A stretch of 33,580 nt of DNA from an uncultured Actinomycetes bacterium (GTDB lineage: Bacteria; Actinomycetota; Actinomycetes; Nanopelagicales; Nanopelagicaceae). Below the pieces are notes generated by a model. It saw only the letters and a program-made list of their open reading frames with translations, was not told the DNA's origin and ran no database searches. Each line of letters starts with the position of its first letter. Positions within the stretch are counted from its first letter, which is position 1. The position numbers and the translations under genes were made by a program. Positions 22,389 to 24,275 of the stretch are shown piece by piece. The DNA lies in contig CAIMNT010000214.1 in assembly GCA_903842855.1 (NCBI GenBank), positions 1 through 33,580 on the forward strand, read 5' to 3'.

Positions 22389-23090
22389 ATGAAGTCTCTC
22401 TCACCCATTATTTTGGCGCTCGACACCGATGAGGTAGAAACTGCCCTCTCCTGGATTGAACTTACTCGCGACTCGGTTGATGTCTATAAGGTGGGTTTGG
22501 AGTTCTTTCTCAAACATGGAGCTGCTGGATTGCAGCTTTTGCGAAAGAGCTCAGATTTTGAGCTATTTTTGGATTTAAAATTGCACGATATTCCTAACAC
22601 AGTTGCTGGCGCTGTCGCCTCGGTTGTTGGTTTATCGCCGCGTTTTTTAACGGTACATGCGTCGGGTGGCGCAAATATGGTGCGAGCGGCTGTGGAGCAA
22701 GGGCCACAGATCGCCATAACTGCGGTTACCGTTCTCACCTCAATTGATCAAGAGGAATTGGTCAAGATGGGAGTCTCACTCACTCCGATTGATTATGCAC
22801 TTGCTTTAGCAAAGAATTCAGTGGATGCAGGTGCCCGTGCAATTGTCTGCTCACCTTTAGAAGTCGAAGCGATTCGGCAAGCGGTGGGTCAAAGTGTTGA
22901 ACTCATTACTCCTGGCGTGCGCCCTGCAGGCTCCGATGTGGGAGATCAGAGTCGGGTAATGACTCCGCGAGATGCGATTTCGGCAGGTGCTGACTTTTTG
23001 GTCATGGGTCGTCCCATCACTTCGTACTTCCAAAAATCTCCCCAAGCTATGCGGGAGCGAGCACTAGAGATGCGAGAATCCCTCAATTGA
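22389..23090 (+). CDS. pyrF: Orotidine-5'-phosphate decarboxylase
   Basis: MKSLSPIILALDTDE, FLDLKLHDIPNTVAGA, TPGVRPAG, FLVMGRPIT; the longer ORF (from 22239) overlaps pyrD, so ATG 22389 with upstream GGAG is preferred. Confidence 0.94.
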   Translation: MKSLSPIILALDTDEVETALSWIELTRDSVDVYKVGLEFFLKHGAAGLQLLRKSSDFELFLDLKLHDIPNTVAGAVASVVGLSPRFLTVHASGGANMVRAAVEQGPQIAITAVTVLTSIDQEELVKMGVSLTPIDYALALAKNSVDAGARAIVCSPLEVEAIRQAVGQSVELITPGVRPAGSDVGDQSRVMTPRDAISAGADFLVMGRPITSYFQKSPQAMRERALEMRESLN

Positions 23091-23962
23091 GCAAAGTTCC
23101 TCCTCCTCGTCTCTCACTCGAGGAGCGTCGTGCGGCGTTAGAGAAAGCGAAATCCTCCAGGCAAGATCGCGCCGGCGTTAAACGTTCTATTGCTTTAGGG
23201 GAGATATCGATCTTTGAAGCGATCAGCGACCCTCGTGAATCTATTAGGCGGATGAAAGTGATAGATCTCCTATCGGCCCTGCCTGGCGTCGGGAAATCTC
23301 GGGCAACTTTAATTATGGAACGCCGTAATATTTCCCTCACGCGCAGAATTGGCGGTTTAGGGCAACTGCAGGTCAAAGCACTGGGAAAGGAGCTCGCTGT
23401 GTCTAAGGGAGAGCCGACCCGAGGGAACCTCATCGTGATTTCAGGGCCAGGAGGAGTGGGCAAGAGCACCATAACCTCAGCCCTGCGTGGTGATCCTAGA
23501 TTTTGGATTAGCGTCTCTGCCACAACTCGCGAACCCCGTGTGGGAGAGCGAGATGGCGTCGATTACTTCTTCCACACACACGCGAAATTTATGGAGCTCA
23601 TCGAAAAAGGGGAGTTCTTGGAGTGGGCAGAGTTTGCAGGAAATTTGTATGGGACACCTCGAACTCCCGTTGAAGAGTGGCGCCGCCTAGGAAAACACGT
23701 CATATTGGAGATCGAGATTGCAGGTGCTAGGCAGGTCAGGGTTCAAGAGCCTGGAGCGACCTTGGTATTTATTGCCCCTCCATCATGGGATGAGTTAGTC
23801 AGAAGGCTGACCGGCAGGGGTACTGATTCTCCAGAGAGGCGGGCAGCCAGGCTAGCCTTAGCAGAGGAAGAGATGGCTGCATCTGGCGAATTTGACGCCA
23901 TCCTTGTAAATGAGAGTGTCGAAGGGTTGATAGCTGAACTGGTATCCTTGGCGACTGCTTAA
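23087..23962 (+). CDS. gmk: Fused actinobacterial integration host factor (mIHF) and guanylate kinase
   Basis: Residues 1 to about 104 match the mIHF pattern (PPPRLSLEERRAALEKAKSSRQDRAGVK...MKVIDLLSALPGVGKSRATLIMERRNISLTRRIGGLGQLQVKALGKEL). The rest is Gmk (NLIVISGPGGVGKSTI, ISVSATTREPRVGERDGVDYFF, EWAEFAGNLYGTP, ILEIEIAGARQVR). One uninterrupted frame, TTG start. Confidence 0.9.
   Translation: MSKVPPPRLSLEERRAALEKAKSSRQDRAGVKRSIALGEISIFEAISDPRESIRRMKVIDLLSALPGVGKSRATLIMERRNISLTRRIGGLGQLQVKALGKELAVSKGEPTRGNLIVISGPGGVGKSTITSALRGDPRFWISVSATTREPRVGERDGVDYFFHTHAKFMELIEKGEFLEWAEFAGNLYGTPRTPVEEWRRLGKHVILEIEIAGARQVRVQEPGATLVFIAPPSWDELVRRLTGRGTDSPERRAARLALAEEEMAASGEFDAILVNESVEGLIAELVSLATA
23386..23401 (+). 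promoter_or_regulatory. Possible internal translation start for Gmk: AAAGGAG-N6-GTG
   Basis: AAAGGAG 23386-23392, 6-nt spacer CTCGCT, in-frame GTG 23399-23401 at the mIHF/Gmk domain junction. Confidence 0.55.
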
Positions 23963-23984
23963 CTGACGAATAGAGGGGACATAC

Positions 23985-24275
23985 ATGTCTGCTGAACTTA
24001 CTGATGGAATCACTCACCCTTCAATCGATGAGCTTTTAGAGGCGGCTGGATCCAAGTACAGCTTGGTTCTATACGCAGCCAAGCGCGCGCGTCAGATCAA
24101 CGCTTACTATTCTCAACTCGGAGAGGGTCTCCTTGAATACGTAGGACCCCTAGTAGAGACATACGTGCACGAGAAGCCACTTTCAATCGCGCTTCGTGAG
24201 ATCAACCAAGGTCTTTTGACCATTGAAAACTTAGAGCCCGTTGCGGAAGCTCCTATCTCAGAAGTCTCAGCTTAA
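23985..24275 (+). CDS. rpoZ: RNA polymerase omega subunit
   Basis: [52 protein letters not shown]; follows gmk; SD-like gagggga upstream. Confidence 0.96.

Follow-up and report, generated by a model that had tools for sequence, protein, structure and literature searches.

Guanylate kinase (Gmk) has a central place in the supply of GTP, and in its described bacterial form (TIGR03263; 1znw, 1s4q) it is a complete P-loop kinase domain with a set of invariant residues and, usually, a short N-terminus. The other partner in the gene analysed here belongs to the stand-alone mIHF/sIHF proteins (Rv1388, SCO1480), which are free proteins ending at a stop codon of their own and encoded in a gmk-rpoZ neighbourhood; the next two genes after mihF in M. 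tuberculosis are gmk and rpoZ, and mIHF there is an essential chromosome protein (PMC6155035). The window, a stretch of 33,580 nucleotides from an uncultured actinobacterium of the Nanopelagicaceae, has the same mIHF domain family in the same gmk-rpoZ neighbourhood and the same complete kinase domain with its invariant residues; however, its mIHF has no stop codon and carries Gmk, and the kinase has a DNA-binding-type domain where the short N-terminus would be. A third point of comparison is provided by bacterial N-terminal proteoforms made from internal in-frame starts (PMC11005335), in which one frame gives a long and a short product, as may be the case here, although the short product of the present gene would be a complete enzyme that formerly had its own gene, and is supported by conservation only. 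Our literature search found no description of an mIHF-Gmk fusion, and no paper that dealt with both mIHF and guanylate kinase. Both parts are known; what is new is their permanent joining in one frame that has kept a nested start. The architecture may nevertheless already sit unremarked in annotation, since NCBI lists NF041260, the profile for the mIHF part, as a domain-type model.

Our main reading, to which we give a probability of about 0.68, is that in the window's clade this locus yields a bifunctional mIHF-Gmk fusion together with free Gmk from the nested start. A single open reading frame of the pyr operon would encode an N-terminal mIHF nucleoid-protein domain, a short linker and a complete, presumably active guanylate kinase. 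The positions of its features are listed in Table 1.

Table 1. Features of the fused locus and its downstream neighbour, with positions in the window.
Feature	Position	Strand	Basis or remark
Fused mihF-gmk ORF	23087..23962	+	291 aa; TTG start overlaps pyrF stop (TTGA)
mIHF (actinobacterial IHF, S13-like H2TH) domain, residues 7-103	23105..23395	+	NF041260, PF22525
-10-like hexamer site over the Arg86-Arg87-Ile88 codons	23344..23349	+	clade A consensus TAGAAT; window CAGAAT, degenerate
Putative internal Shine-Dalgarno AAAGGAG	23386..23392	+	52/57 clade A genes have GAG (Glu)
Putative internal start codon GTG (Val105)	23399..23401	+	41/57 clade A genes have xTG; predicted free Gmk of 187 aa
Guanylate kinase domain, residues 113-289, P-loop GPGGVGKS at 120-127	23423..23953	+	TIGR03263
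Extended -10 TGNTANNNT, in window TGGTATCCT, inside gmk 3' end; likely rpoZ promoter	23940..23948	+	third-base invariance
rpoZ (RNA polymerase omega), 96 aa, next gene (presumed)	23985..24275	+	ORF; position after gmk

A full-length mIHF domain and a complete guanylate kinase in one frame

The sequence-only reading had described one uninterrupted 291-codon frame that passes from an mIHF domain into a complete Gmk. This was borne out both by an ORF check of the window, in which the plus-strand frame runs from its TTG to a TAA ending at 23962 without a stop, and by the two family profiles, each of which scored above its cut-off. The TTG (23087-23089) shares bases with the TGA stop codon of pyrF (23088-23090), an overlap that suggests that the fusion would be translated by coupling to pyrF. 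The mIHF part is full length and longer than the segment that had been quoted: NF041260 (actino_IHF) matched residues 7-103 at 89.8 bits, against a curated cut-off of 60, with a match that spans profile positions 3-101 of 102. The H2TH_5 profile PF22525 gave 62.6 bits for the same part (cut-off 27), and its best solved relatives were the sIHF structure 4itq (E 1.2e-17) and the mIHF structure 6tob (E 7.2e-14).

The kinase part (residues 113-289) scored 208.3 bits with TIGR03263, for which the equivalog cut-off is 160.45, and its top solved relative was M. tuberculosis Gmk (1znw, E 1.3e-46). Residues G120, P121, G125, K126, S142, R148, R151, Y160, E179, G189 and T190 were invariant in the 81 aligned rows; the GMP-site roles among them are ones we assign from family knowledge. 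An AlphaFold model of the fusion, made with 81 aligned sequences, had a pLDDT of 95.0 and a pTM of 0.87; its mIHF part was helical with pLDDT mostly >90, and its kinase domain matched the fold of the solved Gmk 1z8f (E 3.4e-22). Among close relatives the pN values of the two domains were alike (0.128 and 0.108), synonymous sites being saturated so that no dN/dS can be given. As amino-acid divergence is similar in the mIHF and Gmk parts, both domains appear to evolve under purifying selection. Because no stop codon remains between them, all mIHF made from this gene should carry the kinase unless proteolysis cuts the protein.

Distribution and history of the fusion

Matches were found in 271 of the 296 genomes of the order, including 108/108 of those of high quality. 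Within the window's family, the genes for which DNA was examined comprised 116 that are fused, in 11 of 17 genera, and 28 that are split, in the six other genera, so that close relatives do not all carry separate genes. We conclude that the fusion is family-wide and old, and no peculiarity of the window's genome. Neither a further Gmk nor a further mIHF was detected in the fused genomes, single-contig ones such as G280, G152, G263 and G159 among them; apart from pieces at contig ends and a weak mIHF-like hit in G033, each fused genome gave a single match. The fusion would accordingly be both the sole detectable mIHF and the sole detectable Gmk of the cell. Two records in the set (L056 and L061) are titled Bifidobacterium breve and have genes of the freshwater clade; their organism names look wrong.

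In a class-wide sample, a separate mIHF was present in almost all other genomes, with the exception of the distant family f35, which may be Microbacteriaceae. Here long open frames (260-459 aa) were found in 11/11 sampled genomes, and all five that were examined (loci L155-L159) were true mIHF-Gmk fusions. The f35 fusions (G375, G384, G393, G411, G419) have the window's domain order in one stop-free frame, but their origin is independent, their linkers contain no start codon and their mIHF is more diverged (64-78 bits). It can also be seen that in families f41 and f5 there are high-quality Actinomycetes genomes (G436, G447, G040, G326 and others) in which no mIHF was found, despite the essential role of the protein in M. 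tuberculosis.

On an rpoB tree, the genera that branch early in the family (g34, g6, g33 and g39) are split, and the fused genera fall into two groups, X (g5, g4, g37) and Y (g36, g32, g2, g30, g31, g1); between the two lie g35 and g40, which are split, and g38, which is fused. The fused/split label needs four changes on this tree, three of which are forced by well-supported branches, and since one of these three falls on f35, the fusion in that family is independent. The fusion has therefore arisen at least twice; within the window's family, either a single fusion followed by later splits or several fusions are possible.

As to how the genes were joined, in split relatives mihF and gmk either overlap as ATGA or the mihF stop abuts the gmk start in frame. 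In the g35 loci L119-L122 and L117 a mihF stop codon, TAG or TAA, is followed immediately and in the same frame by the ATG or GTG of gmk, one substitution away from a fusion. Loss of the mihF stop, the origin that had been proposed for this one gene, appears plausible because some g35 relatives have a mihF TAG abutting an in-frame gmk ATG; what does not stand is that the event is specific to this genome, given that it is old, family-wide and convergent in f35.

An internal start and promoter-like elements within the frame

The AAAGGAG and in-frame GTG at 23386-23401 were confirmed at the place where they had been reported, with a spacer of 6 nucleotides. To assess their conservation we used a codon alignment of clade A, the window's clade (g1, g30, g2, g31 and g36; 57 distinct genes), and of clade B, which holds the other fused genera and is mostly g37. 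In clade A, GTG or TTG accounted for 35 of the 45 V/L codons in the V105 column, against 10.6 expected (z 8.6), which placed this column first of 78 V/L columns; the true start-codon column (col 8), which served as positive control, showed an xTG bias with a z of 6.95, below that of the V105 column. In clade B, the negative control, the bias at V105 was absent. The position keeps GTG, TTG or ATG while the encoded residue changes (41 of 57 clade A genes), and of the 16 genes that have no xTG there, ten have an ATG one codon downstream. All ten Met codons in that next column sit in genes without xTG at V105. A start is thereby kept in 51/57, and those with none at either junction position are five g1 members and the g36 member. 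A junction start preceded by a Shine-Dalgarno of four or more nucleotides was found in 39/57 clade A genes, whereas only 6 have such a sequence before the true start.

In simulations on the tree, run at substitution rates fitted to this gene, P was 0.002-0.02 for the start column, or 0.002-0.006 given the fast first base of that column, and P<=0.0002 for the GAG of the Shine-Dalgarno in clade A. Taken by itself and after allowing for phylogeny, the internal-start signal is of moderate strength; start and Shine-Dalgarno are conserved in clade A beyond codon usage and shared ancestry. The former gmk signals, a Shine-Dalgarno followed by GTG, TTG or ATG, would thus be under selection in the linker, where ribosomes may also initiate and make a free Gmk of about 187 aa. 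The proposal that one locus makes both products gains from this conservation in clade A, but it does not extend to the whole family, as about half of the sampled linkers of the sister clade (many g37 and some g4 members) are without any start codon. In these genes the signals are gone and Gmk would come from the fusion only; because there is neither a linker start nor any other detected Gmk, the kinase must work while fused.

A further element, a -10-like hexamer, is found within the mIHF-coding part, some 49 nt before the internal start. At this site 40/53 clade A genes have TANNNT, where 2.9 would be expected, with exact TAGAAT in 32; the corresponding figures are 20/58 against 3.2 for clade B and 3/28 against 1.5 for split genes, and at this Arg-Arg-Ile site none was found in f35 and other Actinomycetes. 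The CGT column of the hexamer gave P<0.0002 in the clade A tree simulation. The window's own genome has CAGAAT at this fixed place, and a two-hexamer sigma-70 scan of window positions 22900-24100 returned no match. We conclude that the -10-like element is a clade feature that is probably weak or lost in the window. In many members it may supply a separate transcript for free Gmk, whereas the internal start of the window would rely on the long transcript because its hexamer is degenerate. By raw count in g37, a -10 and an in-frame linker start occurred together (15/16 versus 6/33, Fisher 4.6e-7); a coupled gain and loss of the two was dropped, as it was not significant with phylogenetically independent pairs.

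It is tentatively conceivable that clade A keeps by selection a full nested expression unit, made up of the -10 in the mIHF coding sequence, the Shine-Dalgarno and the start, that would give a kinase-bearing nucleoid protein plus separately regulated free Gmk; all chromosomal mIHF would then carry Gmk, and GDP synthesis would be placed on the nucleoid.

At the other end of the frame, the third bases of columns 292 and 293, which lie in the extended -10 near the gmk 3' end, are invariant in the 57 clade A genes, and this element is likely to be a promoter of rpoZ embedded in gmk. We take the following ORF to be rpoZ from its place after gmk and from established knowledge of the family. The extended -10 TGNTANNNT was found too in clade B, in split relatives and in several high-GC relatives.

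Alternative explanations and what the fusion means

The alternative that survives best is that the joining was neutral, the fusion being tolerated only by means of internally made free Gmk, with a functionless tether. Streamlined genomes with overlapping genes, and the overlapping or abutting mihF and gmk of split relatives, speak for such a history, but the fusion has arisen more than once, and f35 and part of the sister clade keep it although they have no internal start. Sequence alone cannot separate a benefit of tethering from tolerance, and we consider neutral joining possible, if doubtful. A physical tie between the two functions and tolerance through internal initiation had been offered as alternatives; they are not mutually exclusive, and where no internal start remains the fusion must supply Gmk.

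A second potential explanation is that the fusion is obligate, with the internal Shine-Dalgarno and GTG being functionless relics and the 32 kDa protein the only product. This state is evidently viable, as seen in the many g37, some g4 and five f35 members that have no linker start and no other detectable Gmk. In clade A, however, a relic would decay, whereas the start codon and the GAG resist codon drift and a lost start reappears one codon downstream. For the window's clade we therefore think it unlikely that the fusion is the sole product.

We also think it unlikely that the mIHF part has turned into an accessory of the kinase, acting in stability, oligomerisation or regulation, and has given up its nucleoid role. 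Fused mIHF domains do score below stand-alone mIHF on the profile (about 93 against about 150 bits in the class-wide sample), and in the RR[VL]RGLG motif the window has Gly at the position of an Arg in sIHF and mIHF. Against this, the H2TH motifs PGVGK, RR and GLG are retained in the window and, along with Q, across the fused genes, the sIHF and mIHF structures match, and M. tuberculosis cannot do without mihF (PMC6155035); the domain may still bind DNA.

Programmed frameshifting at the Shine-Dalgarno-like sequence could free mIHF in place of internal initiation, and many genes do have out-of-frame stops within 16 codons of the junction; this is nonetheless very improbable, as the alternative frames contain stops in 49 and 39 of the 57 clade A genes, so that neither is universal, no slippery sequence common to the genes was seen, and frameshifting has no need of an xTG codon, which is the feature that is conserved. 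An assembly or sequencing error that deleted a stop, which might be suspected in a window from a 1.44 Mb metagenome assembly that is 80% complete, is ruled out by the same stop-free frame in the 116 family genes from independent assemblies, single-contig genomes included.

On our main reading, a fusion with nested free Gmk, an annotation that mentions only the kinase would leave the sole mIHF and a second product out of sight. The states with and without an internal start that are found in the family amount to a natural experiment on the need for free Gmk. The presence of the fusion throughout a family of streamlined freshwater actinobacteria, and its repetition in another family, indicate that mIHF and Gmk can be permanently tied, which raises the question of a link between GDP synthesis and chromosome organisation.
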